A DNA stretch of 64,000 bases, taken from contig NC_135218.1 in the NCBI RefSeq assembly GCF_052324685.1, positions 13,865,858-13,929,857 of the forward strand, given 5' to 3'. Below are positions 3,860 through 63,573 of this stretch, piece after piece. Positions within the stretch are counted from its first letter, which is position 1, and every line of letters begins with the position of its first letter. The position numbers and the translations under genes are program-made. The notes beneath the pieces were generated by a model that saw nothing but the letters and a program-made list of their open reading frames with translations, ran no database searches and was not told the DNA's origin. Source of the DNA: Brachyhypopomus gauderio. Taxonomy: Eukaryota > Chordata > Actinopteri > Gymnotiformes > Hypopomidae.

Positions 3860-6800
3860 CTAAGTGACCTGAAAAAGCTTCCTGTAGCGGCCATATGCAG
3901 CAGCACTGATGATCACCTTGACGCTGGCAGTACAGTCATCTTCAGCGTCATATACCTCCTGAACAGTAGCTTCCTTGTACAGCCACCTGCACATAAACAC
4001 ACATGTACAAACTCATTTCCCCCCTAGGGTTGTATGTACAAACTAGTGGGACATCGGTAGCCCCAGTGATTTACATGTCAACTCACCCTAACTGAGGGCT
4101 GTTGAGCTGCACTTTGAGAATCATGGTCTGTTTCCCAGTCAACTTCACAACAGCTTCTTCAACTCTGTGCTTTAACTCATCCAAGCCCAACTCTTCCAGG
4201 GCTGATACAGGCACCACCCCTGGCTCGCTTGGCACGTAGCTAATCGAACATATAAACGAAAAGTTCTTACTTGCAACACAATTAAAGCTTCAGGCCTTAT
4301 GACCTGGTCATACTGGTGAGGTCTTACCCTTCAACGAGGTCAATCTTGTTGTGCACCTCTATTATGGAGTTCATGAGTCTCTCTGGTATCTGAAGGTTCT
4401 TTAGAACGTTTAACACATTGACCTTTTGGTTGACAGTCTCTGGGTGATTAATGTCCCTCACATGAACAATGAGATCCTGATAAAGGAAAGAGGATATCAG
4501 AATATACTGGGATGCATTTTATAATCTTTCATTTGGTGATATTCACTGAAATATTTGCCTCCATAACTGATCCTTCAGGTTCTCTAGGTACGTACGGAGA
4601 GTGCCACTTCCTCTAGTGTCGTGGAAAAAGAGTCTATGAGCTGGTGAGGTAGCTGGGAGAGGAAGCCAATTGTGTCCACATACAGTACAGTCATGTAACT
4701 GGGCAGCTGCCCTGCGTGTACAGTGATATCCAGAGTAGCAAAAAGCTGATCTTTCGGCTGAAGACCAGATTCCCCCGTCAGCGCTTTGATCAGCGTGGTC
4801 TTACCTAAGGAGACAAAACCAGCCATGTGTTCACTGGTCCAAACGCACTTCACCTGATGTTCAAACCTGATTCCACAGAGTTGGCCACAGGTTAGGCCAA
4901 AGGGAGCCGGCATCTCACCACAGTTGGTGTAACCCAAGACGGAGACGATGGGAATGTCTTTGTGCTTGCGCTGCGAGCGGAGCAGGTGTCTCTTCTTTCT
5001 CAGACACTCTAGAGCAGTGCGGATTTTCAGCTCTCGCTCCTTCAGAAGTCTCTGCTGTATCTCGTAGAGAGTTTCACCTGCGGGAGCCACGAGGGACGAT
5101 ACCAGTCTTACCCCAGGAAGGAGGGTGAATGTGGCGTGACTGTTCAGACTTCAAGTGAAGCACAGGCTCTTACCTGAACCCATGATATACCTTGAACCTC
5201 CACCTTGCTGGTCCAAGTTTGCTACTTCATTCTTTAATCGTGATCTTTGGAGAACAAAGAGAAAAAAATGGTGGTGTTTTAAATGCTTTAAAAACCGATG
5301 AGTTTTACTTATAATATTAACAACCGATAATGATAATAATTATATGACTATTTCAAACTCAGCTTTCTGCCTTTGGGCAGTAACAGAAAGAGCATTCACA
5401 CCTCAGCAGTGGAATCTCTGCCAAGGAAATCTGCAGTTTGGCTTCTTTTGTTCTGGCATTGCGGCGGAAAATGTGTAAAACCAGAGAGTATCTGTCGAAC
5501 ACTTTCATGCCCCATTCATCCTGCAGCTCCCTCTTAAACAACATCAGAGCAGGAACCATCACTTCAGAGCACCCGTCCTTCCTTACAACTCTTTGTACAG
5601 AATTACAATGTCAGGGATGAATTAAAACCAAAATATTATAGGGCTTAAGGCATGCGTGGAAAACTGAAACTATCATTAGGAGTAATGACGTATTTAATGT
5701 TTAATCAGATTACACCATCTGGCACATATTCATTTCAAGTTAAATTAACCTGAACAGAAAGCACAGGGTACAGCATAAATATTAATTAGACCATGTGTGG
5801 GTCTCCATAGCTTGAAATATGGTTTTGTATAAACCTGTATTTGTACAAAATGTAGATTTACCAGCCTTGAAACCACAGTAAAGAACAATTAAAGCATACA
5901 ATCATTTAAGTTATATGAATTGTTAAGTTAGCACCATGAATATCCGTGAACTTAACTAGCTCATGTGTGATGTGGCAGGGTGCCAACACTCACCTCAGAC
6001 ACTGGCGAGAGGCGCTCCACGTTCATGAAAACTGCTGTGATACCAGATGTTCTTCTGATTCTCTCTACACGAACGTATCAGACTTGAGGGAATATTGTCC
6101 TTCACGTATTAAATAACAAGTCAACCTGACCAAACAAGAAGGGTGCATTGAATACCTGTGAGGATCTGGAAATTTCCCTTGCCAAAAATTCTCTTCTTTT
6201 CTGGTGTTTTGGTAGAGAGAATTATCTTGTCAACAACTGTCCAGTTCTGTAAGGTGTTCACCAGACCAACAGCCTCTGCCATTTGGAGATCAGCTTAAAC
6301 ACAACAAAGAGACACATTTTTTCCCCCCCATCATAGGCAAATTGTCTCTGATAATACTATATATTGTTGCAACCTGCACAGACATGGACAGGTGTCTAGA
6401 AAATATCAGTGCTATAAAAAGCAGAAAAGTAAATTCATACCTTTATTAAAATTTTTGCTATTAGTAGAGGTGTTTAATGATGTTTAATGGTCATCGTTAA
6501 GGCAAATCTAATTAAAAGTGTTGAATCTAATCTTAGTTATGCATACCTAAAGAATCTAATTACCTACAGCATCAGAATGATCAGACTCCTTGGTTTACTG
6601 GGATTAATACCTGTCGTCAGACGTTGCTTTTTCTGTCCCCATTTGACATCAGGATGAACAATGAAGACCCTGTGGTCCCCTTCACCTAAGTCTGTGGGGA
6701 CCTGCTGCTGGAAGAGCTCTTCCACCTCCATGTCATCAATGAAATCCTCTTCATTCTCAGGACTGCCCATGCTTCCAAACCCAGAACTGGCATCTTTGTT

Positions 6801-7691: not shown

Positions 7692-10600
7692 ATGTCAAGT
7701 GAGTGAAAAATCTGTTTTTTTTAATGGGACGAATTTGTCTGCGTGCCATTCTGATGTCCGATGATATTTCGGCCTTCCATAATGTGCATGGGTTATTATA
7801 GCTAGATATCCAACTAATGGCACCTGTCATTATCATTTTGATACTTTTAGCTGACTATAATCCATTATATTCTCTCTCTCTCTTAAGCACACTGTTAAAT
7901 TCTAAAAGTCTAATGAACAAATTCCGTTCCCAGAGTTCCGTCTGGCTGTGGTGCAGTTGCGCGTAACTACATCGAAGGCTGAAAACTTGACTCGGACCAA
8001 GAGGTTGGTGCATGAAGCAGCGGGCCAGGGGGCCAAGCTGGTGGTTTTACCCGTGAGTCACCGTGAACCCATAGCCGCACTAGTCTTGGACCATAAACAT
8101 CTACAGTTTGGTTTCTCCTCAATTTAGGAGTGAACATTGACAATTGTACCACTGTTTTTCTTAAGGAGTGCTTCAACTCTCCATATGGGACAGGTTTCTT
8201 TGCAGAATATGCTGAGAAAATCCCAGGAGAATCATCCCAGGCATTGTCAGAGATTGCCAAGGAGTGTGAGATTTACCTAATAGGCGGTAAGAGCTTACAT
8301 TCAATAGGCTACATTACACATAAAGGTATGTTTCTCAAGAGCCTTTGTAGCATTTTGCACAGAAGAAGAGACAGAAGACAGCATTTTTAAAAACATACAT
8401 TAAAACACATGGTCAAGTAAATAAACCTGCGGAGAGGTTCACAGCATTATGGGAGTCCTCTCTGCTTTCTGACCAACCCTCAGCCCAAAGTTCATGATGG
8501 CACATAATTATGATTCACATATTTGTTTTCCAGGTTCTTTTCCAGAGGAGGATGGGGGGAAACTGTTTAACACATGTTCGGTTTTTGGTCCTGATGGTAA
8601 GCTACTGGTCAAACACAGAAAGGTTAGTGTGAGTTACAGATTAGGGGGGGAAACTGCTTCGCATAACTGAAAGTTAGGTTGTAACAGAACATTGGTGCAG
8701 AGATGGTCAACTGCAAGTTGGTCTACATAATTTGTTGACTTATTAACTTACATAAAAATCTAATTTTGTGTGAATCTGTGTATGATAACTCTGAGGTGAT
8801 TGGGGACTTTCTGAAAATGGAGCACTGTCATTGAAGCTACTGCATTTTGTTTCTTATGCCCTAAAATGTTGTCTCCACCTTCTCCCTACAGATCCATCTC
8901 TTTGACATTGATGTTCCTGGGAAAATACGTTTTCAGGAGTCTGAGATACTAAGCCCTGGGAGCAGCTTATCCATTTTTGAAACCCGTGAGTGTTCAGTGT
9001 AGCTGACGCATCATGATTACACTTCTGCTTATGGGATTATTTTAACAATATTCTTAATTTTTCCTTCACAGCATACTGTAAAGTGGGTGTAGGTATTTGT
9101 TATGACATGCGCTTTGCAGAGCTTGCACAGATCTACGCCAAAAGAGGTGAGTTGTGTGAACGGGATTGCAGAATTGGTTGGAGTTGGTAGATTGTTGTGT
9201 GTGGTTCTGTTTTGATCGTACTAGTTGAGTGATTCCTAGGTTGATGGACAGTGGGTGTTTTGTAGAAGTCCAAATGCCCCACAGTCTTTGACAGTGCAGT
9301 TATAACAAACCTGATGTGAGTGTGGAACAAATGAGGGGGGAAGGGGGGGGGGGGTGTTTGATGGATTTGTCAAATGATCTCTGAAAATTGCAGACTGGTT
9401 TAACTTATGGGTTGACTTAGTTTAAAAGAGAATAATGTGAAAAGACTCCATGTTTCCATGGTGTTGGTGTGCAAAAACATTTCAGTATTAGACAGCGAAC
9501 TTTTGGTGGTAACGTTAGAATCAACCAGACTCAGCTTGTAAGGAAAATTGTTGGATAATATTGTCAATACACCCCCTACTTCATGCTCTTTGTAGGCTGT
9601 CAGCTGTTGGTATATCCTGGTGCCTTCAACATGACCACAGGGCCGGCTCACTGGGAGCTGCTACAGAGAGCTCGGTCAGTGCCTGCACTGTGAATCAAAC
9701 TCTGGATTATTCTCTACCATCTCTTTGTATCAAACTGTTGTGTTTCCTTAGTGCGGTGGATAACCAGGTGTACGTGGCCACTGCTTCACCAGCGAGAGAT
9801 GATACAGCCAGCTACGTGGCGTGGGGTCACAGCTCTGTCATCAACCCCTGGTCAGTGCCTTGGGTTATTGGCCAACCGGGTTTAGACACTGATATACGGA
9901 ACTTCAGCAATGTGGTGAGGAATAATCGACTATGGTGGCTGTTTTTATCTCATGCAGGGGTGAGGTGATCACAAAGGCAGGATCTGATGAGGCTATTGTG
10001 TATGCTGATATTGGTAAGTTTTAGTAGTTCTTTAAAACATAAATGTGTCCATTATGAAAACAATTTTTACTTCTTAATTGTAATCATTATATTTAATTTA
10101 TGTAGTATTTTCTTATTGAAATAATACCTGCCGCATTAAGAAATCAGACTACGCCACTTTTGGAATTCATGTTATACCTCAAAAGGCCACAAGTTCATCA
10201 AACCAGGGAACAGCAGGCATTGGCTCCCAACACGTATTATTAAAACATGTATTATTAAAAAGTGAGCGAATATTAGTATTGTTATACTATTACTAATATT
10301 AGTATTAGTATTGTTAACCTTTTAAATCCTGTAAGGCGCTTTGTGACAACATGTGTTGTGAAAAGCGCTATACAAATAAACTTTGATTGATTGATTGATT
10401 GATATTACAATTTTATTTCAAAATGTTAAAATAGCTTAGCCAACTATAAAATCCAGGATATAATAGTCATATCAGGGATTGGACAGCAGGGGGATGCAGA
10501 CTTTCCAGCTTCCAAAAACTGCAGTCAATGGGCTAAAATAACTAAGGCTTAGTTACTAAGCCAATCTCAGCCACTTCCAAGGCGGATGACCACCATAGTG

Positions 10601-12388: not shown

Positions 12389-14493
12389 GAGTGTCATGTT
12401 TTCCCAGTTGAAATGAACAAAGTTTATAGGATCCAATTCTGCTGAAACAAAGAGGCTGAAGTACTTGCATTAAAGTTTGTGAATTTCCAGATCAAGCCCC
12501 TATCAGACTCTAGTGACATAATAGTGAAGCATGTTCTGAAGCTAATTCATCATTTTGTTTGTCCCATGTGACATTACCATGTGTGTAAAGGGTTACAGGA
12601 CGCATCTCTCTCAGGCGGCCTGTATCCATGATTATCATTTCTGTTTTGCCAAAGTCTGAATCCTCTGAAAACCATGAAAAAAGAAAGAAAAATAAGCAAG
12701 CATCATTGGGCCAACGTTTCATGTAGTATGCATCCGATCTATGCTGTCTTCATCACACCTGACCAGAACACCGTGAGGCGGTCTTCATCAGTTGGCGTTT
12801 GACTGCAGCACTACCTGCACGTGCTCTTCTTGCCTCCTGGTCCCACTTGATTTGAAAGCCCAGAGCCGTTGCCACCAGCATGACGACCAGCATGCAGAGA
12901 GTGAGGCTGAACACCCACGGGAACGCAGAATGGTGCTGCATCACTGGATCCAGCTGCACACCAACTGATTGAACAGAACAGCATGTCCACCATGCTCAGA
13001 CCAGAACAGGGTTAAGGGGCCATCAGTCTGTGTTCTACTTACAGACTTCCAGTGAATAAGAGCAGTGATGTCATTTTTGTTTTAGATCATGATGACTTAC
13101 ATTCATACTAATAGACAAATGTAAGTAAAATGATTTATGTATTTATTATAGACTACTTGAATTATATTATAATAATAAGGAATACATGGTTACTCGTGCT
13201 TACAGAGTGGACATTCATAGAAGTCATCGTTATCATAGGCCTATAGATGGCACAGTCACTATGGTTTAATACTCACAAGTTGTGGTGAGAGATTCATTCA
13301 GTAACTGGTTTACTATGGTACAGGATACAGTACTGTCCAATGAGATGTTTGCCTTGAGCACACTGGTGATGTTGTAGAGCTGAGAATAGGGAAGAGTGCC
13401 CACACGTGTAGTGACTGTCTCTACCTCGGGCCACTGTGAAAAGTTGATCAACCAAAGGACTGAAGGTTTGGGAAACCCTCCCCAAGACTGGCAGACAAAT
13501 CGAGCTACATCTTCATCCATGCTGGGTTGTTGCAGTAACAGAGGGGATGTAAAATGAGCTTGAAAGAAAAAAGAAATAAGTTACAAATTTAAATTGATGT
13601 GACCTTCTAAAGGAAATCTGTTTTGCATTCCAACAGCATTAATGACTTTGTCATTAAACTTTGCCCCCTAAAGACAGTCTAACTAAAAGTCTAGCTCTGC
13701 CACTGCTAGAAGTCTATGTACAGTCTAGGTCTATGTTCGGTGCTGACAACAATGGATAACACGGGAGTTTATGAACAGTAAACCACTTTACAGTGTAACT
13801 AAGTCTTCATGATGGCTTATGTTTACTCTCAGTTGTGAATTTATTATGCCTATGCAACACATTGCATATCAGGGCATTTGTTAGACTGGAATAAAAATAA
13901 TCTAATATTTAATTTCCAAAGCAAATAATAATAATAATTATTGGCAATCTATAAATATGTAGTTACAGCATATACACAACATATGCTCATATTAAAAAGC
14001 TTAAATTAGTCTGAATGGCGTTACCTGCAACAGTGAGGCAGGAAGTACATATTACTGCACTTGTTCCCTTGTCAAGAAAGTTTATGTGCATACTGTAATT
14101 TTGGGTATCTGAGACACTGATGTTGCTCAGCTTCATGGTGAAGTCTCCAGGTTTTGTCATGTTTATGAGTGAGTGCTCTTGTTTCTGATTGAGTCTCTTC
14201 TCGTGTCCTTCTGTCCACGCTGCTGTATACACTACATCATTACCTCTTCTCCATTCAAATGAGATGTTCAAAGAAGCCAAATTCTCGTGTCCATTATAAA
14301 GGCAGGGAAGAAGAACGTCTTCCCCACTCACTCCAACAACACATGCTTCAGCTAAATGGAAACATACTGATAAGATTACAGATTACAGATAAAAAGAATT
14401 GAGCGAAACAGTACAATACTTAGTGAATGACCTACCTTGAAATGCAGAAAAACTTAAAACTTTCAGCAACGTCATGAACCACGTTTTACTCAT
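12215..14493 (-). CDS. B7-like immunoglobulin-superfamily membrane protein
   Basis: Minus-strand exons: 14493-14436 (signal peptide beginning MSKTWFMTLLKVLSF), 14351-14025 (IgV), 13558-13277 (IgC-like), about 12968-12816 (stalk plus transmembrane), about 12667-12583 and about 12438-12215 (tail). The IgV domain starts VSGEDVLLPCLYNG. In the usual DxxxYxC motif it reads DTQNYSM, so the canonical second cysteine seems to be methionine. The C-like domain has both cysteines, in RFVCQSWGGFPKPSVLW and STVSCTIVNQ, plus several N-glycosylation sites. A hydrophobic helix (VFSLTLCMLVVMLVATALGF) is followed by a short basic cytoplasmic tail. Domain order and the GGFPKPSVLW motif fit the CD80/CD86/ICOSLG branch of the B7 family, ligands for T-cell costimulatory receptors. 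I do not assign a specific orthologue. The last exon reads from host sequence into the solo LTR, which supplies the stop codon. Frames were joined by eye. Confidence 0.75.
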
Positions 14494-16678: not shown

Positions 16679-29747
<13,069 letters not shown>

Positions 29748-50232: not shown

Positions 50233-50238
50233 CACAAC
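50233..50238 (+). other. Left target-site duplication (CACAAC)
   Basis: Six bases directly before TATGGAGC, repeated exactly at 60978-60983 after the other end. Confidence 0.9.
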
Positions 50239-50332
50239 TATGGAGCTATTATAGTGTCACCAGAACCTGAACCTGAAATCATTATTACTTGAAAAAACAG
50301 TCTGTAAAATCCTCGCAGGTATGCAAAAATTC

Positions 50333-50530
50333 GAGTTAAAATTCAGGTTCAGGTCGAAATTCAGGTTCGGGTCGCAATTCAGGTTCGGGTCGCAATTCAG
50401 GTTCGGGTCGAAATTCAGGTTCGGGTCGTAATTCAGGTTCGGGTCGAAATTCAGGTTCAGGTCGTAATTCAGGTTCAGGTCGAAATTCAGGTTCGGGTCG
50501 AAATTCAGGTTCAGGTTGAAATGCGGTTCA
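50333..50530 (+). repeat. 18-bp subterminal repeat array, left arm
   Basis: Ten units of the type AAATTCAGGTTCGGGTCG, plus a partial eleventh, with variation at the first base and at GGG/AGG. The identical array sits in the right arm at 60686-60883. Because the unit is a multiple of three, it yields an open frame reading NLNFDP repeats; I regard that as by-product. Likely transposase-binding or structural repeats. Confidence 0.9.
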
Positions 50531-50661
50531 TCCGGGATACGTAGGATGAGCAAACAAACTCAGAGCTAATCGAACTGCATCTGGCCAATCACAAAACATA
50601 TCAGAGGTCAATGGGAGGTGCGTCTTTCTACCAGTTTTGTAAAAGGACCATTCGGAAGACC

Positions 50662-50697
50662 ATGGCCGAAGATCGCACTGTCGGAGCTTTTCCAGCT
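50662..50697 (+). other. TIR-encoded first exon, left copy
   Basis: ATGGCCGAAGATCGCACTGT begins a 12-codon exon ([12 protein letters not shown]) ending in a good donor, GCT|gtaagt. In the right arm the identical exon starts the transposase gene. Here it faces the HECT gene, but the phase does not fit the first HECT exon I can see (51257). A bridging exon or a different HECT start would be needed. The frame is also open upstream from an ATG at 50611. Confidence 0.6.
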
Positions 50698-51256
50698 GTA
50701 AGTAAACCTATTTATTACTTTATCCTCTTTTTCATTAGGACCACACCAGAGTTCATTGTTTATTGCTCGTTTGTAAATGGAAAATCAGATTTTGGATTTC
50801 TTTCTTAAGACGAGTATGGCGTGAAGCACATGTTGGCAGGCTAGTTTGCTGGGCGTACACTGTGCGATTTTTGGCCCATTTTCAGCCGATTTTTCACTCG
50901 TGCGACTATTTTTGCGATCGGGCCGAGTTTCGACCTATTGAAAATGCATTCTATTGATCCACATAAAAAATACAATGAGTCTGAAGAACCCTCTAATTAT
51001 GCTGTGTTCTAGTTAATGAACTAATGATGAACCATCTTTGAGTGTAAGTGTGACATGTTATTAACATGGAGCAAGAAACGAGCGCATGAAACACAAATGG
51101 GGATTTTAATAAAATACAAGAAACGGACACATACTGAGGACCAGCAGTAAAAGTATCAATCAGTGGATTATAGGGCTCAAATGCAAAGCATTGGAGGGGC
51201 ACCTGTGGGGACTTGAATAGCGAAGTAAAATGAACTTGTTCATATTTTTACTTTAG

Positions 51257-54100
51257 GAGGATGGGGAAGACGAAAGCTGTCTCTTGTGCCCCCAGAAGAT
51301 TGTGGATATACTGGCAAAATTCTGAGAGCAGCTTGTAAAGGGCCCATTTATATAGCTCCACTTCAAGAACAGCTGGACACTAATCCATTGCCCCCTACAT
51401 CAGAAACATTCAGCAACATGACAAAAGCTCTGTGTCAGAAGTGCAAAACGTTATATCCACTCCAAGTCCTGGCTGATCACATCAAGTCATGTGAAATCAC
51501 AGCTGTGGAAGACTCTGTGGAAGAATCTGACCATCTAGACAGTGATGGTAATGAGCCAAAAGGGACCAAATGTAAGTAATTTTGTGTAAAGTAAAAGTAC
51601 ATTTGCAATGCTGATATAATATGATATATAATTATATTGCTAAAAATAAATGCTAGAAATGAAGTCTTAGTTATGATGTGAATTCTGTGCTTCCATTTTC
51701 TCAGCACCTGTTGATCACACCTGTCCAATATGCCTAAAAACATTCCCTTACGAAACCATTGAAATACACGCAAGTTCATGTGGAGAAAGGTATTCATGGA
51801 TTTGTCAAATGCTAACATCTCACTTTTGTCATTTTCCTTTTTTACATTATTTAAAATGTATAAATTAGAGGGATAGGAATGGTCCAAAATTGGCTCGAAT
51901 TAAGAATTTCTACACTGATATTCTATTAAAACCATTTTCTTCTCCTGTAAAGTTGTCTCATTGAACATATGAGGTTTTGTTTTGACCATTGTAGTGCTGA
52001 CAGCTATTCAGAAGTTGCGGATGAGGTATTGCCAGGCTGTAGTGCCAAGATTGTGGATGGTTGGTGCTGTATTCTATTACAAAATACAAGTAGTCTTACA
52101 TTTAGAAGCCTTGTGTATGTCATGCTTGCCTTTATTGGCCATTTGAGTTTCTCATGGGTTTTCCCGTTTCCCAATCCATAGAGTGGCAGTCAATCCCAGA
52201 CCCTATCAAAGCCATGTCTCTGTATCGAGAGACACAACTTCGTAACCATGCTACACAGGCACCTTTGAGTCTGTACATGGACATGAGAAGCACCCCAGCA
52301 GAACGAGATGGGGCCCTGATCTCTTTCTACAAGAAGACACGTGTGGAATGGGCTCGACCTTTGTACTGCAAATTGGAAGGTACAGACTTTACAATAGAAA
52401 TGAGTAGTTAACAATGACATGTTTTATTTAAAAATCTGGCTATTTTCACAGGTGATTGTGCTGTTGGGGAAGGTGTTACACGGTTCTTTTTTTCAACCTG
52501 CATTGATAGACTGAAGTCTGGATTTTCTGTAAACCTGGGTAATTCATCCACATTTTGTAGTAATGAATAAGAAACAGTGGTATATTATACTGCTTTCACA
52601 AAAATCACAATGCATAATTATACTGAAATTATTTCTGCATTTCAGCAAACATTGGGGTCACCAGACTTTTCGAGGGAGAAGTAGATCATTTGGTGCCGTC
52701 AGCCTCCCCCTTTCTTGTTGACAGTGATCTGTTTGTTGTGGCTGGGAGAATTTTGGGACATTCCTTTATACATGGAGGGCCATGTCTGTCTGGTTTGAGC
52801 CCAGCTTTTGTGCATGTTCTTCTGAAACAGCAACTGTGCAGCTAAATGACTGTCCAGACTTGGATATCCGTGAAACAGTGAAGCTTGTAGGTTAATCCTT
52901 TTATGATGCAGTTTTTATTTTATTGTATACCTGTTAAAATGTCTAACAGTTATTGTCAATCAACATATCATATTATCTAACCTTTTTGTATCTTTAAAGC
53001 TTGAGAAGTCTGAACTTTCAAATGAAGAAAAGAACACAGTGCAAGATTTGGCGTATGCTTGGGATCTCCCTGGTGTAACTAATGATAACAGGAGGTGGCT
53101 TTTTGAAAAGATGCTCATCCATGCTGTACGGTTTTCACTCCTTATTGTGGATCAAGATAATAGATTTGTGGAATTATTGCTTGAGTCATATAAAATTGAC
53201 ATTTTATATAAAATGCTTTGTGTAATTTTAACAGGTAATTGGACGAATCATGCGGCAAATCAAACAAATGAGACGTGGCCTCAAGGAAACCCCGATGTGG
53301 TCAGTTTTGTCCCAACGCCCAGACACGGTGCCTCTGCTTTTCCCAAGAGAATCATTACAGTGCGTCCCAGAGGTTGGTAGAAAGCTTACCTTTTTGTAAA
53401 TAAAATAAGCATATTTGCTGATGTTTTTCATGTCCTTATTCAAATATACATTACTTCCTATAGATTAATGCATCTTAAAATCTACATTTATTTGCTTAGT
53501 TTTACATGCAAATTGTTTTGTGAAGTATCAAAGTATGATTGGTCAACTTCTAGCTAAGAATGTCTCAGCTTTGTTTTATGCCTTGTATGTGTAGTTAGTT
53601 CTGCAGACAGTTTGCTGGCCTGAACAAGAGGAGGATGATTCTGATTCAGAATATCCACTTGCCACCAAGTGCCGCATCTCTGGATTCCTTCGACACTTCA
53701 TTCAAACTGGTAATGTGGAAAAATGTCCACTTGTTTGTCTTTCTTTTAGGATTTGTCAAAGTCTTAAAGGATTTTATCTTTAGCGACTTACAAACCTGCT
53801 TCATTCACAGCATCACCTACTGAGATCAAAAGTCTGCTGAAGTTCTGGACAGGGTGGGAGGTTCTACCTAGAGAGCTCACCTTTGAAATTGTTAAAGGTA
53901 GCCTTCCAACAGCATCTACCTGCTTCGAGGTGCTCAAGATCCCTGGCCATTATGAAGATTTTGAGGCTTTTAGGAGTGATTTGCTGTCATGCATTGGTAC
54001 CCATCTCACTGGGTTTTGGGCTCATTTAAATTCGGATCTTTTTTTTCTGTTGTTCCATATATTAGTGACTGCTGTTCAGTTGGCACTAGCCAGAATTTAA
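51257..54100 (+). CDS. UBZ-finger and HECT-domain ubiquitin ligase-like gene, apparently frameshifted
   Basis: About nine exons on the + strand: 51257-~51571, ~51705-51790, ~51994-52025, ~52186-52379, ~52453-52540, 52646-~52892, ~53002-53140, 53236-~53371, ~53595-53700 and ~53812 to the stop at 54100. The N-terminal part has two C2HC fingers of UBZ/Rad18 type (CQKCKTLYPLQVLADHIKSC and CPICLKTFPYETIEIHASSC). The rest follows the HECT region of the fish G2E3-like family: TRLFEGEVDHLVPSASPFL, GRILGHSFIHGGPCLSGLSP, YAWDLPGVTNDNRRWLFEKM. It ends in STCFEVLKIPGHYEDFEAFR, which holds the expected catalytic cysteine. HECT enzymes take ubiquitin from an E2 on that cysteine and pass it to substrates. 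Near 52818 (CATGTTCTTCTGAAAC) the frame shifts by one base, so this copy may be broken, unless the read is wrong. The translation start is not settled: first in-frame ATG at 51418. Cargo role unknown. Confidence 0.7.
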
Positions 54101-54204
54101 ACCAAAAGTGCTGAATACATTTACTCAAGAGTTTGTTACAAGTTCTTAATATTTTCCCCCATGTTGGCAAATTCTTCAGGTTGCAGTTTTGGCTCCTTCT
54201 AGCT

Positions 54205-54890
54205 CAATCAATCAATCAATCAAAGTTTATTTGTATAGCGCTTTTAACAACTCAAGTTGTCGCAAAGCAGCTTTACAGGGTTTACAAGGTTAACAATACT
54301 ATGGGTCCAGAACCCTAATGAGCAAGCCAAAGGCGACAGTGGCGAGGAAAAACTCCCTATGGTGGTGAGGAATAGGAAGAAACCTCGGGAGAACCAAGAC
54401 TCAAAAGGGAACCCATCCTCCATTGGGCGGCCCGTTAACACACAAATACACAAGTCACACATAATTCACACAATCAGACTAGGTAAAAGGTAGAATTGAA
54501 AGTTCTGGGTTTTGATATTGTCACTGTAAATGTCTGTTGATGAATGCCAGGCTTTCATTCCGTGTCGGAGCAGTGATGCTGGTATTGTAGGCTCCGACTG
54601 CAGTGTTACTCCCCAGGTGAACCCCGGTATCAGCACATCCACCGGCAGCCAGACCATCCCCCAGGTGCCTGCAAGTGCCTGTATCCAATCGTCTTGGGTA
54701 GAGCCATGCAAGAAGATAGATAATACAGACTGAGTGGACATGAATTTAAACCACCGTTGATTTAAATGTACGTAGCTCACGTGCCAGTGATCAGCATGTG
54801 GCTCCGGCAGACTAATCTATAGCAGCATAACTAAAGGGAGAGGTTCAGAGGTGACCACAGGCATGAGGGCTCACTGAGACATTGCTTTCC
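54205..54890 (-). mobile_element. Retroposon (LINE/SINE-type) nested in the transposon
   Basis: On the minus strand it ends AAAAGCGCTATACAAATAAA, CTTTGATTGA and further TTGA repeats, the same 3' end as the truncated copy at 10316-10402. Its body contains the conserved CCTCGGGAGAACCAAGACTC and CAGAGGTGACCACAGGCATG type blocks (given as + strand) of a very common fish repeat. It lies between the HECT and transposase genes and interrupts neither. The 5' boundary near 54890 is approximate. Confidence 0.7.
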
Positions 54891-55446
54891 AGTCAAGTCA
54901 TAGTCACAAATAGAGTGACTATGCTCAAGACTTTTTGCTGAAAGGGCAAAATGCCTTTGCAAGTTTGGTTAATTTTCTCTAGCAAATAAATACAGATGGC
55001 AATTCTCAAAATCTGCAATTGTCAATGGACTTCAAGTTCAGGTTTTAAGGTAGTAACAATTCCATTTAAGGTAGCAATAGTTTTAAGGGAAATATAATAA
55101 ACCTGAATTAAAATCTGATCTAAATGCATGCAACGATAGACTGTTGAGCCTGGGGAGTGTAAATTTATATATTACAATGTTTGGTTTATTCATAGGCGAG
55201 TCCATAACCTGATAGTATATAGAACAGTGTGGTGTTTTTTTTTTTTTGTATACACACATGACCCACATTGTTTATAGTGGAATGGGCATTAAAACATTCT
55301 TTAATTTGTGTTTGAGTGAAGCATTTTTCTTCTCAAAGCCAGTCCTTGAGTAAATATAGCTTAAATAAATCTGCATATCATGTGGTTATCTAGCCTAGGG
55401 TTTGGAAACACTGGGTTAATACCTACAACACACAAACCGTTATGTA
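54891..55446. other. Spacer between the two transposon genes
   Basis: AT-rich, no open frame of interest. It contains a duplicated TAGCAAT/TTTAAGGTAG word near 55050-55085. Confidence 0.4.
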
Positions 55447-55451
55447 ACCAC

Positions 55452-55807
55452 TGTTACGACCCCACGATTTCATGGGACTATGTTTGGGGTGTGGGGCAGT
55501 AGCATGCCGGTTGCGGACAAGATGAAATGAAAGAACGCGGAAACCAGTCGGATGCGTTAAAAGAACTCTTTACTGCAGAGTGGTAATCACCACAACAACC
55601 ATAAAGGCAGTAAAGCTCGTGTCGCCTCTCAGCGACTTCCAGCAATCACAGCAACCACACATACATACACAACCATAAAGGCAGTAAAGCTCGTGTCGCC
55701 TCCCAGCGTGGCCGACAGAATCCACTCGTGATGAGATCCACCTGTTGAAAATTAACCAGAAAAAAAAAAAGAAAGCAACCTCCCCAAAATCCACAGTACA
55801 CGTAACA
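55452..55807. mobile_element. Solo LTR nested in the transposon
   Basis: 356 bp from TGTTACGACCCCACG to CACGTAACA, with the TG...CA ends of an LTR. It is flanked by perfect 5-bp copies of ACCAC (55447-55451 and 55808-55812). No internal region or second LTR is present. Inside, CCATAAAGGCAGTAAAGCTC and the following GTGTCGCCTC occur twice, at about 55600 and 55671, a local tandem duplication. Confidence 0.9.
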
Positions 55808-56184
55808 ACCACACATCAGCCAAGTCATCCTCTATCCAAGTTCTAGACTAAGACCATTTGAGTCCAAGTTCTCTTGGGTGTCGTCGTCTCCGGTAAGTTG
55901 TTGATGTCCATAGAATTTAGTGTAGAAGCCACAATCCAGCGATACATTCTTAGAAGTCCGTTCCTCCCCAATGTTTGTATGCAACTGAAAAAGAAAACGA
56001 GAGAAAGCAGTAGCAGCATGTACATATACACAATGTATAGCAAACCATAATGAGCAGAACCGGAGGCAGCTGTTTTATTATACACCTTTTCAAATAATTC
56101 AAAATGCCTTTATAAATATTCTTGTCATGACAAAAACAACAATAGCTTATATGGACTAATACACCACTTTTTAATATACAGACC

Positions 56185-59100
56185 TTATTGATTATCCAAC
56201 AAATAAGAAGCATGATGCAAACAATTCAGATAGATATCACGCCCATAACTATCTGATGATGCAGTTGGTTGTACAGCTAATCTAAGCAGCTCAAGGCTCC
56301 TGGGGTTAAGTGGACATTCCAAGCCTGGCAGGATGACACCTTGGTGTTCTTCCACATCCAATCCAGAATCTTCCCAGTCAATGGCATCAATATGAATTCC
56401 CTAAATGTACATAGCCCAGTAATAAGTGTTAATTGCACACATTAATAACCACAAAGATAATTAAAAATGTTTTAATTACATCACCTCTGACATTCCTGGT
56501 TCTCCGACTGGATTCTGCATGAGGCCGAGGTGCCACAGCTGATTTGGTGTCATATTTTGTTCAGTCCGGACTGGGTGATCATCCCAGCCGCGTGCAAATC
56601 TGGACAGATCATCTTTCAGCCGTGGCAGAAACGAGTAGTGAACACAGTAGAGGTGCAAGCTGTCAGCAATGTCAAGAAGCCCATCCTCTTCCAAGGTGTG
56701 AAGAACATCGTAGTACACCTGGGTGACTGCTAACCACACATCTCGCCACAGGCGTTCTATTCTGCAAAAATAAAAAAACCTAACAAAATTAACCAATTAC
56801 AAGCGCATCTTCGAACATGTATAATTATGCTGAATAGAATAGTAATGCTGCTTGATTTTCTTTCTTGCATTAAATTACTTTATACTGTTTTGGGACCGGA
56901 TGTGAAACAGTTGTGAATGAAGTATGGTGACCCCATGTCATGTTAAATCAGTTCATACCTCTGATTGTGGACACTCTTTCCAGAAATAAAGCTTCCACAC
57001 CCAGTTCCTCGTACTGTGAACATTGCCTGAGCAATATCCACATTCTCCACACCTTGATCTGCTCTCACTCTGGAATAGGTGCATGGTGTGCTAACTTTTA
57101 CAACCAAACCATTCTTCATATTAAATAGTTCTGGGCTAAAATAACATTATTGAAAAGGACAGTAAGGCTTTACTCACTTCTTAGGCCATCCAAACCTCCT
57201 CACACCATCTAAGAAGAATGCATAAGCTGTTGAAGCCTTGTTGTTTGAAGCAGCATTGAGATACATGATCTGTAAAAACAAAAGTCAGTACTGTGATATT
57301 GCTACAATATACATGCTCAAAAATAGTGTTGAGGCACTCTCTAAGACAAAGTTTATAACTTTTTAAGCCAAACATATTTAATCCATCATTTACAACAGAA
57401 CATTTTCAGGTTCACTGACAATACCATATATTAGTGGTAATCAAGTGAAAAGTGAAAAGGGGAAATACATGATTTTTTTAATTTCTATGAAATGTAATCA
57501 AATATATTTTTTTCATAAAGGTTCATATATATACATTTGGTATATACTTCAAACATGACATTTTATGGAAACAAGAATTTAGATGTCAAAGTTAGACCCT
57601 ACCTTCCTTGAGAAGCCATCAATACCACCAAACACCACAATATTGTACCTGTGAAAATAAAGAGAATGGCTACTAAGCCTAGAGAATAAGTGATGGCTGA
57701 AGAATTAATTGGTTTTATCAAAATCTGTCTTTTAAGGTAATAAAAACAAGATAAATAATGCAGAGCTCATAACCTGGCAATGAGGTACACTGTATATAGT
57801 ATTCAGTCCTCAAAGAATTGGACATGCTGAACTTCTTAGCGAGAAAAATAAATGCCTGGAGCTTAAAAGGTGTATTGCATAATTTCTTTTTCTGCTTTAC
57901 ATAAATAAATCATAAAAGTGATCTGAAATATCCCATTCAAGAGACACAGTCAGAATTGTTTACCCAATTTGTGATAAAAACCTTAAGTGGTTTGAAGACT
58001 CTAAAAGCTACATCACAGAATTCAAAAATGGTCACAAATATTTATTAATGATTGTTTTGAAAAACTTGTTTGAAAATTGACCTAAAATATTTTTGTTCAA
58101 GGTTAAAAGCTAAATGCAGGGTGTTAAGTTTTCCTTTGTCAACATTACATACTGTATAAGAACTTGGAAGACATGTCTACTTCACTGGCGGTTTGGTAAA
58201 TATTTGTGATCAAAGTGACTCCTGGTTCTATTCACCACCACTAGGAATAGCCTAAATCATAGTCAATTTTTCAAAAATGAACCCAAACTGGAATGACTCT
58301 TTACATCTAAATTAAAATGGGATATTAAACATCAAATCATTAAGCCCTGCATCAAGTATATCCGAGTAAATTTCAATAACAAAATAATGACATTTAAACA
58401 AAAAAGGTGGGAAAATGGGTGGGCAAACAAATGTGAAAAAAGAATGAATAATAAGAACACTGTAAGCACAGACCTGCGAGTATATCAGTTCCCTGCATGC
58501 AACAGGCTACCTACCTGATGAGCTTGTGATTGGTGTCAATGTGTTGCATACACAATGGTCCAGGAACAGAGTACTTGCGGCGGATAACACAACCCATACT
58601 TGACAATCTAAGCAAAATGCCAGCAGTGTCAACACGATGCATTGAGGCCCTCACTCTTGCCCACTGCACGCGGTGGCCCTCAGACTGAAGACACCCCTTG
58701 ACTGTCCGATAGCCTGCATGCGGAAGCCTTGACTTGATGTTTCTGACCATCATGTCTAGATCTTCATCAGAAAGAGTAGAGTACATATTTGACACAGACA
58801 TATTGAACTCGCGCATTCTACGATGTACTGTGCTTTTTGAAACTCTGAGAATTCTGGCAACACATGATGCCGATAGTCCAATCTCAAAAAGGTCTTTCAA
58901 GTGCTCAGATGTAATTTGAAGTCTTGAAAGCCCATGGGGTCCCATCTCCCAAAAAACAGAAGAGGGTGACTCTGGTGATGCGAGCAGAGCACAAAGATCC
59001 GAGTGAAACCTATCCAGTGCCTCCTTCACGACATCTGGTAGGAAGCCTACACTGGCTGCACTTATTAAGATTCTTTCTTGACTGATGACATACAGCATAT

Positions 59101-60554
59101 AGTCAAAATCAGGAGCATTACTTGAAAGAGCATGTTCAAGCCTTGTCTGGAGTCTTGAGATGCAATCTTGTCTAAAAGCTTCCTGCAATATCAAACATGA
59201 CACTAAATAAAATATGAAACACTGGCACTCATCATAGTTACTGAGCTACACATAACCAATGAAAAACCTTTCATAACGTGTATATTTTTTAACAATTAAA
59301 GTAATAAAAACAATAGGTTTCCCACATTACGTGTGTGAACCCTAATAATTTCGACCATCACTTTAGGATGTTAACAGAAGATCCTTTTCATGTATTCACA
59401 TTAAGTTAGTACCAGTCTGAAAACACACTTTCCCTTTACATACAGCATTTTACACTGACAGTTCATAAAATATTTAACCAGTTATGAGGAGCTTGTTATC
59501 TTGACCAGGTCGGCTTAAGCATAATCTCACTGTACATTTGTTAGAATACTGCACCCTCCACAACTTCGCCGAGTTAGGCGGTTGAATATGCAGCCTCTAA
59601 ACTGACTCCCGTGCAAAACAGAACGTATTTTGTTCTTATTGCAAAATAAATATATGTTGAATAATGTTGCTTCGTTGCAAACACCAACTCACATTCCCGT
59701 AACCTTCACTAAAATATTCCAAGCAATTTTGCCGGAAGAATATAGCTGTGATTTAAGTTAGAATAGGACTATGTGTATGCGCGGTGTCTACTAATAACTC
59801 CGATAATAAAAACGCTGTTTTTTCTATGCGCGCACACACACGCACAGCGGCTTAATCATTTTTACCGACTGTGATTTGTGACTAATGTCAATACACCTAC
59901 ACCAGAATATATAATGCTTCTTTGCGGAATGCACAACGTAGCTGCAGCTTCAGTGCTTCCGTCACGTACTTACATACGTTAAAACAAAATGCTGTTCATC
60001 TTCGATACTGAAGAAACCTAACACGGATACTAACTGGGCGTACACTGTAGGATATTTTAAATCGTGTACTCAGCTCCAGCTCAAACTGTACGACTAAATC
60101 GCAAGGAGAGTCGGCTCGTAGAGCTGCTTCAACAGTGCGATACTCTCACGAGGAGCGATTTGAATTTCAAACATGTTTGATGTTCTTGCGACGCTGCGAT
60201 TTCTGATCGAGAGTTGGTCGTGAGGTGTGAATCGCTCCTCGGTTACCTGTGTAAACCACACGATGCACGACACGCGATTGAGCCGAAACTCGGCCCGATC
60301 GCAAAAATAGTCGCACGAGTGAAAAATCGGCTGAAAATGGGCCAAAAATCGCACAGTGTACGCCCAGCAAACTAGCCTGCCAACATGTGGTTCACGCCAT
60401 ACTCGTCTTAAGAAAGAAATCCAAAATCTGATTTTCCATTTACAAACGAGCAATAAACAATGAACTCTGGTGTGGTCCTAATGAAAAAGAGGATAAAGTA
60501 ATAAATAGGTTTACTTACAGCTGGAAAAGCTCCGACAGTGCGATCTTCGGCCAT
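56185..60554 (-). CDS. DDE integrase-like transposase of the IS3EU-like element
   Basis: Seven minus-strand exons: 60554-60519, 59182-58515, 57648-57603, 57269-57178, 57069-56959, 56761-56485 and 56400-56185. All have GT-AG borders and sum to 1446 nt, 481 residues plus stop, with no frame break. Exon 1 ([12 protein letters not shown]) lies in the terminal inverted repeat. Residues about 114-140 ([20 protein letters not shown]) form a helix-turn-helix. The rve-type catalytic core has D228 ([11 protein letters not shown]), D285 ([10 protein letters not shown]) and E320 ([13 protein letters not shown]), with 34 residues between the last two. This matches retroviral-type and IS3-type integrase folds. 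A C-terminal region with [11 protein letters not shown] follows. No reverse transcriptase or protease is fused. It should cut the element ends and join them to the 6-bp staggered target. The start was chosen because exon 1 joins exon 2 in phase. Confidence 0.88.
60034..60367. mobile_element. MITE in transposase intron 1, right arm
   Basis: 334 bp with inverted ends: CTGGGCGTACACTGT on the left and ACAGTGTACGCCCAG on the right. It has no coding capacity. The flanks (TAA before, CAA after) do not give a clear target duplication, so the superfamily is not assigned. Its right 84 bp belong to the terminal inverted repeat; the left arm has only that part. Confidence 0.75.
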
Positions 60555-60977
60555 GGTCTTCCGAATGGTCCTTTTACAAAACTGGCAGAAAGACGCACCT
60601 CCCATTGACCTCTGATATGTTTTGTGATTGGCCAGATGCAGTTCGATTAGCTCTGAGTTTGTTTGCTCATCCTACGTATCCCGGATGAACCGCATTTCAA
60701 CCTGAACCTGAATTTCGACCCGAACCTGAATTTCGACCTGAACCTGAATTACGACCTGAACCTGAATTTCGACCCGAACCTGAATTACGACCCGAACCTG
60801 AATTTCGACCCGAACCTGAATTGCGACCCGAACCTGAATTGCGACCCGAACCTGAATTTCGACCTGAACCTGAATTTTAACTCGAATTTTTGCATACCTG
60901 CGAGGATTTTACAGACTGTTTTTTCAAGTAATAATGATTTCAGGTTCAGGTTCTGGTGACACTATAATAGCTCCATA
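60284..60977 (-). repeat. Right terminal inverted repeat, 694 bp
   Basis: Reverse complement of 50239-50932. It carries the transposase first exon at 60554-60519 and the 18-bp array at 60686-60883. The inner border at 60284 falls inside the MITE. Confidence 0.93.
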
Positions 60978-60983
60978 CACAAC
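60978..60983 (+). other. Right target-site duplication (CACAAC)
   Basis: Exact copy of 50233-50238, directly after the terminal ...CTCCATA. Confidence 0.9.
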
Positions 60984-61938
60984 CAGCAGGAGTCCAAAGC
61001 AAATGGAAGTTAAGCCAAGCAAGTTGTACGTGACATATGTTCTAGCATCTATTTTCAATGAAAACCTGGAGACTGAGCAGTTGCTGTCTTGTTTTTGTAA
61101 ACCACTAAAAATACAAAACCTAAAATAGCTGAGCAAAAACAAAAGACTTTTTATGTCTGAAAAACTGTCCAGAGATTTTTCTCTTGTGTGTTTTAATAGC
61201 AGTAGAGCATAATGCAACAGAATGGTCCTTTCAGAAAACCGCTTTAATATTACGTCTCCGTCTTTTCCCTGTCCACGGTAACCAACCAAATTTGCCAGGT
61301 GGTGATACGCAGATCTCAGATTGACCCTATAGATTTGAGGTTGTCAAGGAAACACTCATTAATCACTCAGAGACCACACACCCTGGATAGAACAATATCA
61401 CCTGGAATCTTTCCTAAAACTGAACCTGCATGTAAATGTTGAGTCACGTGTTCTGTTTTCCATAGCACTGTAGGCACTTCCCTTTGATGTGTCTTCTAGT
61501 ATTTCATTATTATTATATTTTCCATTTAACTAAATATGTTTTGCTTTACTTTGTAAAGCACCATGCCTGACTTGCCTCTCAAGCCATGAACACAGGTTAT
61601 CATAGTAAGGGCATTTTTCTGTCTATAATCACTGTACCCAGGCAGGCTGTATGAGGTCTCATCTGATTCTTCCATATACATAAATATGCTGTTGTGCTAA
61701 AGAAAATGCTTATTTGCAATTTAAGACTAATTTAATGTTAAATAAACATTCAAAATTCACATCTGCCTGACTAATCAGGCCCCAGATCCTCAGTCTGCTT
61801 TTCTTTCCCAAAGGAAGGGAAACAGAAGGATACACATTAGCATTTCAAGGCAGCCAAATCGTGTAATATTTAGAGCAGCATAAGGGCATAAGGTTGCCAT
61901 CTCTGTTCCACATTGCAGCTACACAACCCTCTCACACG
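60984..61938. other. Gene-free spacer
   Basis: No supported exon, RNA gene or clear element between the transposon and the minisatellite. Confidence 0.5.
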
Positions 61939-62307
61939 GCTCTTTATGGTGGGCCCCGGCTGGTTATACACAGCTCTTTATGGTGGGCCCCGGCTGGTTA
62001 TACACAGCTCTTTATGGTGGGCCCCGGCTGGTTATACATGGCTCTTTATGGTGGGCCCTGGCTGGTTATACACAGCTCTTTATGGTGGGCCCCGGCTGGT
62101 TATACACGGCTCTTTATGGTGGGCCCCAGCTGGTTATACACGGCTCTTTATGGTGGGCCCCGGCTGGTTATACATGGCTCTTTATGGTGGGCCCCGGCTG
62201 GTTATACACGGCTCTTTATGGTGGGCCCCGGCTGGTTATACACGGCTCTTTATGGTGGGCCCCGGCTGGTTATACATGGCTCTTTATGGTGGGCCCCGGC
62301 TGGTTAC
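61939..62307. repeat. 34-bp minisatellite, about 11 copies
   Basis: The unit GGCTCTTTATGGTGGGCCCC followed by GGCTGGTTATACAC is repeated about 10.8 times. Variation is limited to CACA/CACG/CATG at the unit joint and single changes in the GGCCCC run. Because 34 is not a multiple of three, one peptide pattern (LWWAPAGYT) shows in all three forward frames. Confidence 0.97.
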
Positions 62308-63573
62308 TCTGCAGTGTTGCAGCTGAGGAGCATTTTGCAAGGCGTACACGTATCATAAGTGACCTGAGATGGCATGTGTTTAACTCTCCATTATTCTGTG
62401 AATGGCTCAGCGGGCTGGGGAAATGTACTCCGTTGACCCGCTGAGAGGTTCTGTACACAGTGGTCGTATGTGAGCGACCACGCCTCCCAGAACAAGAGCT
62501 CATGATTAGCATTATATTATTATCCTCATATTTATTGTGCAAGGGGATACCCAAACTGAAGTAGACTGAAAGTACACAAGAGCTCTACATAGAGGAGGAG
62601 ATTGTGAAGGTGTGGGCTCCACGGGTCCGGCACTAAGTGAGCTGATGGGCTTATACATCATGTGAAGTGCTGCTTCCCAGACAGGCTGATGCAGGCTACA
62701 TACAGACTCATTCAACCCTCATAAAGATTCATTTAACAAATGAAAATTCCATCTGCAAGCTGCAGGTCCTCTTCAAAGGCCCAGTGGGATATTACTCCAC
62801 TCTCAGCACAGCAGATGTTCCCTCTCCATCACCTCTGGTTTTTGTCAGATGTACCAGAGAGAGTGAAGATTATAGGATCCAGGTCATGTAATGAAATATA
62901 AATGCGGTCACATGTGGATCACTGGATTTATTGTGTTTATCATCTGTTTGAGAATGATAAGGCAACTTCATTTTATCAAGGATGTGGTGTATAAATGAGG
63001 TAATGGAATTACATTCAGCTGGCATAATTTGTCTTAACTCAAAAGGAAAATGTGAAGGTTAAATGAGAGATGTATAGGTGCTTAACTCAAATCTTCACCT
63101 AAACAGGTAAATATGACACAGCAGATCAAATAACAAACAGTAACAAAATCAATTTGTGGTATCAATTTGGATTAAAATGGTGCTCCAGGTTTTTTTTTTA
63201 ACTGAACACAGCATACCCTCTGACATATAGTTGACATAGAACATTTTCATGTGTTCAAGGCAATTTACACATTGAAATATTACTTAAATTAAAATTTTGG
63301 AGGGACACTTGACTTACAATAATAATCATATTCAACATTGAATGGCCAGAAACACATCACAAAGGCATTGCGGATTTGTCTTCTTCTGTGGCTCATTTCA
63401 TTCAAAGTTTTAAAGGTAATTGTTATTATTGCCATAATAATTGGTTGGAGGGGTCAATGTTTACCAGACCATTTGAAATTAAAACAAATTGTGGAAATAA
63501 AAGTGACATAGTAACATGCATTTCCATCAGAAACTCAAACATGCACTGCACGTACATCAAGACAAACACTAAG
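62308..63573. other. Gene-free stretch
   Basis: No supported exon. A short inverted repeat (AGCGGGCTGGGG...TTGACCCGCTGAG) lies near 62408-62445. The rest is AT-rich. Confidence 0.5.

Follow-up and report, generated by a model that had tools for sequence, protein, structure and literature searches.

The stretch analyzed here, hereafter the window, comprises 64,000 nucleotides of the genome of the electric knifefish Brachyhypopomus gauderio (order Gymnotiformes; NC_135218.1, positions 13,865,858 to 13,929,857, forward strand), and positions 50239–60977 of the window are occupied by a DNA transposon bounded at both ends. We consider it rather probable that this element is a fish cut-and-paste transposon of the IS3EU type carrying two convergent genes, one for an integrase-like DDE transposase and one for a HECT E3 ubiquitin ligase, each starting in a terminal inverted repeat, and with the ligase being a likely accessory factor. 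The ends of the element, its target-site duplication, an intact integrase gene, and a first coding exon shared by the two genes are observed in the window. Furthermore, comparisons of annotated proteins show that the shared N-terminus recurs in other fishes, that distances within the two protein families correlate, and that the catalytic cysteine of the HECT domain is conserved.

Structure of the element and its two genes

The element begins with TAT at 50239 and ends with ATA at 60977 (terminal sequences TATGGAGC..GCTCCATA). An exact comparison of the two inverted repeats showed identity at 692 of 694 positions, with mismatches at 50630 and 50826 and with homology stopping past position 694. 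The 6-bp duplication, the 694-bp repeats, and the TAT...ATA ends had been claimed in the original prediction, made from the sequence of the window alone, and all of them were seen. Both repeats contain an array of 18-bp units, and these arrays may be sites of transposase binding.

50233..50238, no strand: left target-site duplication, CACAAC
50239..50932, plus strand: left terminal inverted repeat, 694 bp, containing the HECT gene 5′ end and first coding exon
50339..50522, plus strand: 18-bp tandem repeat, 10.2 copies, within the left inverted repeat
60284..60977, minus strand: right terminal inverted repeat, 694 bp, containing the integrase gene 5′ end and first coding exon
60694..60877, minus strand: mirror 18-bp tandem repeat, 10.2 copies, within the right inverted repeat
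60978..60983, no strand: right target-site duplication, CACAAC

The integrase gene lies on the minus strand in 7 exons with GT/AG borders, and reads through 481 codons without a stop. Its product matches the integrase core family rva_4 (PF24764, E 4.1e-70), in agreement with the earlier description of an intact 481-aa DDE integrase, and the catalytic residues D228, D285, and E320 are invariant in an alignment of 23 sequences. A search among 7991 scored candidates yielded 1677 proteins at E ≤ 0.001, the best 120 of which were compared; among these listed homologs, and counting those with a residue at the position, D228 was found in 119/120, D285 in 114/116, and E320 in 118/120. The integrase homologs among the matches listed carry fish names, with one cluster also having a ferret label, and no relative of either the integrase alignment or the HECT protein P0121 (see below) was found in viral contigs. 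An annotated B. gauderio protein, P0001, can be read in order from the window except for one splice-junction residue, a piece of retained intron being included, and is probably the annotation of this locus's own integrase.

60519..60554, minus strand: integrase exon 1, the same exon as HECT exon 1, in the right repeat
58515..59182, minus strand: integrase exon 2, helix-turn-helix region and first catalytic residue, D228
57603..57648, minus strand: integrase exon 3
57178..57269, minus strand: integrase exon 4
56959..57069, minus strand: integrase exon 5, catalytic D285
56485..56761, minus strand: integrase exon 6, catalytic E320
56185..56400, minus strand: integrase exon 7 and stop

The HECT gene lies on the plus strand, facing the integrase gene, and its exons from 50662 to 54100 code for a HECT domain, matched by PF00632 at E 5.5e-17 when the pieces are read through together, and for two C2HC fingers. 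Its best homolog is P0121, an intact 723-aa protein of B. gauderio differing from P0001 in both gene number and contig; the match, 99% identity over 93% of the query, was obtained with a query that included a short frame-0 stretch later dropped from the gene model, a stretch not included in the Pfam query. That first model, in which exon 1 was spliced straight to the exon at 51257 and the frame-0 stretch was taken as coding, was rejected because P0121 has the 51257 exon in a different frame, with further coding sequence ahead of it. In a tblastn comparison of P0121 with the window (E ≤ 1e-3), residues 1–31 were matched in both repeats and residues 191–720 downstream, with no match to residues ~32–190 anywhere in the window. 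The reading frame is also broken at ~52824 and again just ahead of the stop, at ~54016. Given the missing 5′ exons and the two frame breaks, the window copy would be unable to make a normal ligase: judged from its sequence, it carries a dead HECT gene, and another B. gauderio gene, that of P0121, is intact. The original prediction was silent on the integrity of the HECT gene. With only the integrase gene intact in the window copy, any ligase would need to come from other copies.

50662..50697, plus strand: HECT exon 1, donor GTAAGT; the start codon of annotated homologs is the in-frame ATG corresponding to 50611
51257..51571, plus strand: HECT exon, GGWGRRKL.., first C2HC finger; exons between exon 1 and here not found in the window copy
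51705..51789, plus strand: HECT exon, second C2HC finger
51995..52059, plus strand: HECT exon
52182..52379, plus strand: HECT exon
52452..52538, plus strand: HECT exon
52646..52886, plus strand: HECT exon, frame break near 52824
53000..53125, plus strand: HECT exon
53235..53372, plus strand: HECT exon
53595..53709, plus strand: HECT exon
53811..54100, plus strand: last HECT exon, catalytic-cysteine motif PTASTC; a frame break near 54016 changes the C-terminus

The catalytic cysteine of P0121, Cys689, was found to be Cys in 127 of the 130 homologs with a residue at that column (the other 37 of 167 have none there), and the motif near the C-terminus is retained in the window copy too. P0121 has two fingers of the CxxC..H..C type. 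A HECT gene facing the integrase is present as had been predicted, and its description as a UBZ-finger gene is weakly supported: the Pfam matches to XAF1_C, WRNIP1, and zf_UBZ (E 0.001–0.08) all fall below the curated cut-offs and occur in 2 of the 9 family members scanned, and RAD18 was matched at E 0.06.

Some further observations concern the same proteins and the space between the two genes. In carp-like fishes, three related HECT proteins (P0196, P0205, and P0217) have an extra RING-type region according to precomputed Pfam annotation, with P0205 also having a B-box, and are possibly fusions with TRIM-like genes. A single predicted protein of Dissostichus mawsoni (P0209) contains both a HECT domain and an rva_4 integrase core; it was not used as evidence because the integrase and HECT genes face each other in the window, and perhaps results from two neighboring genes having been merged by annotation. 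Between the integrase and HECT genes lies a dispersed repeat of the CAATCAATCAAAGTTTATTTGTATAGCGC type (54204–54301), matching 10306–10402 on the opposite strand with 91.8% identity over 98 bp, and probably a later nested insertion.

The shared first exon and probable co-inheritance of the two families

Both genes have their first coding exon within the inverted repeat, on the left for the HECT gene and on the right for the integrase gene, and both proteins therefore begin alike. The N-termini of P0121 and P0001 were found to be identical for 29 residues before diverging. When the N-termini of 120 integrases were compared with those of 167 HECT homologs, six integrase/HECT pairs were observed to share at least 10 residues, always from position 1 of both proteins; outside these six pairs, no stretch shared within the first 60 residues was longer than 6. 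In the 39 species having both families among the listed proteins, a common prefix of at least 10 residues was found in 5/242 same-species pairs versus 0/6805 cross-species pairs, for which the longest shared prefix was 6 residues. The five pairs come from B. gauderio (29 residues), Danio rerio (24), Paramisgurnus dabryanus (23), Oryzias javanicus (11), and Trichomycterus rosablanca (10)—that is, from a knifefish, zebrafish, a loach, a medaka relative, and a catfish. The same-species count leaves out D. mawsoni (P0032, P0067, and P0209), whose N-termini agree in the first M only, as well as the pair P0127/P0006 (12 shared residues), since P0006 has no named species; the latter pair is included in the co-divergence test described below. 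In the other species, too, the shared exon would be located in inverted repeats, the window being the sole DNA inspected.

The members of the O. javanicus pair have adjacent locus tags (OJAV_G00067790/00067800), and two pairs from Melanotaenia have LOC numbers 1 apart, with one of these pairs sharing 5 N-terminal residues. Among 93 pairs from 20 species, drawn from the listed entries with a visible LOC number, the numbers are consecutive in 2 and no more than 60 apart in 5, versus 0.006 and 0.37 expected if numbers are assumed to be spread uniformly over a block of 30,000.

Distances between integrases were observed to correlate with those between the corresponding HECT proteins, both for ten pairs hand-chosen because a common exon or close gene numbers linked them (r = 0.84, permutation p = 0.0005) and for the six among them linked by an exon (r = 0.92, p = 0.004), the shared exons having been removed in the exon-linked cases. 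The pattern does not seem to follow host relationships: in integrase distance, the catfish lies at 0.27 from the medaka relative versus 0.47 from the knifefish, and the same order holds for the HECT proteins (0.38 versus 0.42). Such a correlation in a pattern unlike host relationships suggests that the pair is old and inherited as a unit. Recurrence of the pair as a two-gene system, anticipated in the original prediction, thus holds among annotated proteins, as shown by shared first-exon peptides in five species, neighboring gene numbers, and correlated distances.

Proposed role of the ligase and competing explanations

In the arrangement proposed here, both genes would owe their start codon, first coding exon, and presumed promoter to one duplicated sequence, because each gene begins inside an inverted repeat. 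The repeats should then serve as twin promoters, by analogy with maize MuDR, and with a common 5′ sequence the two proteins would probably be made in step and with the same N-terminal peptide. If the repeats must stay alike for transposition, the 5′ ends of both genes stay alike as well; exonic inverted repeats thus suggest a route to co-regulation of the two genes of one element. The integrase would cleave at the ends of the element and integrate it with a 6-bp stagger. The HECT protein would be an active ligase, and most likely an accessory factor acting on host proteins of repair, silencing, or antiviral type, or on proteins of transposition, by ubiquitylating them for the element's benefit.

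Several observations weigh against this proposal. The HECT gene is dead in a copy with near-identical repeats, indicating that the ligase is not required in cis for a recent-looking element. No common N-terminus of at least 10 residues was found in 237/242 same-species pairs, which may be unmatched pairs, pairs with unannotated small exons, or elements without the arrangement. Recurrence beyond the window rests on annotated proteins and not on inspected DNA; the ten pairs of the distance comparison were selected by the authors, four of them on closeness of gene number alone, and some of the HECT proteins are partial, with the shortest overlaps spanning 61–69 columns. In addition, the HECT-side proteins of zebrafish and Paramisgurnus are 31–33% identical to P0121 and have no precomputed HECT domain, and a Pfam scan of the zebrafish protein found no HECT domain.

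The main rival explanation, to which we assign a low but appreciable probability, is that the ligase acts as a brake, ubiquitylating the integrase to limit copy number, with the shared promoter keeping both proteins in proportion. The common 5′ region and first exon do suggest co-expression, and a broken HECT gene beside near-identical repeats is what would be expected if loss of the brake leaves movement unharmed. However, the HECT catalytic site is about as conserved as that of the integrase, and a selfish element seldom retains a brake for long. Retention of the catalytic Cys in 127/130 homologs reaching the column also argues against a role without ligase activity, in which the HECT protein would partner the integrase by binding ubiquitin or providing a scaffold, using its fingers and N-terminal domain, an explanation that we regard as improbable.

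A host HECT gene captured passively and kept along without function would accord with the dead gene in the window copy and with the name "G2/M phase-specific E3 ubiquitin-protein ligase-like" given by NCBI to several of the homologs, G2E3 being a link by naming. Against this explanation stand an N-terminus shared in five species of knifefish, catfish, cyprinid, loach, and medaka-type fishes, and a HECT family that co-diverges with the integrase and retains its active site, and we consider it very improbable. Least probable by far is that the HECT exons belong to a separate host gene or another element merely lying inside the transposon: related HECT-like proteins are indeed abundant in fishes, forming 181 clusters at E ≤ 0.001, but HECT exon 1 sits in the inverted repeat itself, and P0121, a different gene, repeats that exon. 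Both of these explanations were set aside on the basis of the shared first exon, its recurrence, and the co-divergence.

A broader proposal can be made more tentatively, with a real though lesser chance of being right: an old, teleost-wide transposon class in which a HECT ligase is the standing partner of the transposase, with coding inverted repeats, one promoter, and a shared N-terminal peptide that is possibly a common address tag. A ligase that helps transposition, if confirmed, would help explain the abundance of unnamed or "G2E3-like" HECT genes in fish genomes, and would caution annotators that many of these HECT genes may belong to transposons.

Other features of the window and related systems

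Elsewhere in the window, a Tc1/Sleeping Beauty-type element (27824–29443) has a 345-codon open frame (HTH_Tnp_Tc3_2, HTH_SB, and DDE_3) and 48-nt ends that are 85% complementary. Two open frames are probably host exons, one at 22342–22770 with a piece of a Cys/Met metabolism pyridoxal-phosphate enzyme (PF01053, E 1.6e-19), and the other, of a GTPase, at 4584–5150 on the minus strand (MMR_HSR1 match, with GTP-bdg_M below cut-off). A further open frame, at 13987–14382 on the minus strand, has an immunoglobulin V-set domain (E 4.7e-6). Three overlapping frames are open across a repetitive stretch at 61867–62444 (GGPRLVIHSSLWWAPAGYT..), by its look a minisatellite and not a gene.

IS3EU/GingerRoot elements are described as having TA..TA termini, a 6-bp duplication, and an integrase-like DDE core without an HHCC finger, with the first D located 100–300 residues into the protein (PMC10045372). 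The window element shares these termini, the duplication, the core, and the position of D228; moreover, a reading of the 481-aa sequence found no CxxC pair upstream of D228, and thus the HHCC finger is not present. By termini, duplication, and core, the element fits IS3EU/GingerRoot, from which it differs in its HECT partner, the main text of that source containing neither HECT nor ubiquitin. No paper on an IS3EU–HECT pairing was found in the open PMC literature, the scope of the search, and the pair may be recorded in Repbase or in subscription literature. Unclassified repeats of Cottus are reported to match various proteins, G2E3 among them (PMC5638112), which is consistent with a HECT-carrying transposon class.

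A parallel in layout is maize MuDR, described as having two convergent genes with promoters and start sites in or adjoining the inverted repeats (PMC3440606). Likewise, the genes of the window element converge and each has its 5′ end in one of the inverted repeats, for which a promoter role is presumed. MuDR differs in its Mutator transposase, its ~215-bp repeats, and a second gene, mudrB, of unknown function, and the relevant part of that source mentions no shared coding exon. The transposase of the window element matches the rva_4 integrase and not the Mutator (MULE) superfamily, and none of the 8 Pfam rows that it gave at E ≤ 0.05 belongs to a MULE family.

The ligase itself resembles HECT E3 ligases in its bilobal HECT fold and in its catalytic Cys within a TASTC motif. 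The nearest PDB chains by fold or sequence include UBR5, HUWE1, and AREL1; the transposon HECT protein differs from these in having its own N-terminal domain and two C2HC fingers, and is 14–20% identical to the solved chains.

With respect to cargo, in fungal TET-positive IS3EU elements, too, the transposase gene and a second gene point in opposite directions; there, however, the second gene encodes an alpha-kinase, with a TET/JBP dioxygenase in between, and the main text of the source names neither HECT nor ubiquitin (PMC12730594). The VTD/OTU deubiquitinases of Helitrons, occurring in vertebrates and other animals, are a further case of vertebrate DNA transposons carrying a ubiquitin-system enzyme with a conserved active site, but remove ubiquitin and lie within the Helitron open reading frame of a rolling-circle element (PMC9741609). 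By analogy, these two systems can be regarded as precedents for ubiquitin-ligase cargo. If the ligase aids transposition, the element would represent a defined, testable DNA transposon that rewires host ubiquitin signaling, as a mirror image of the Helitron deubiquitinases.

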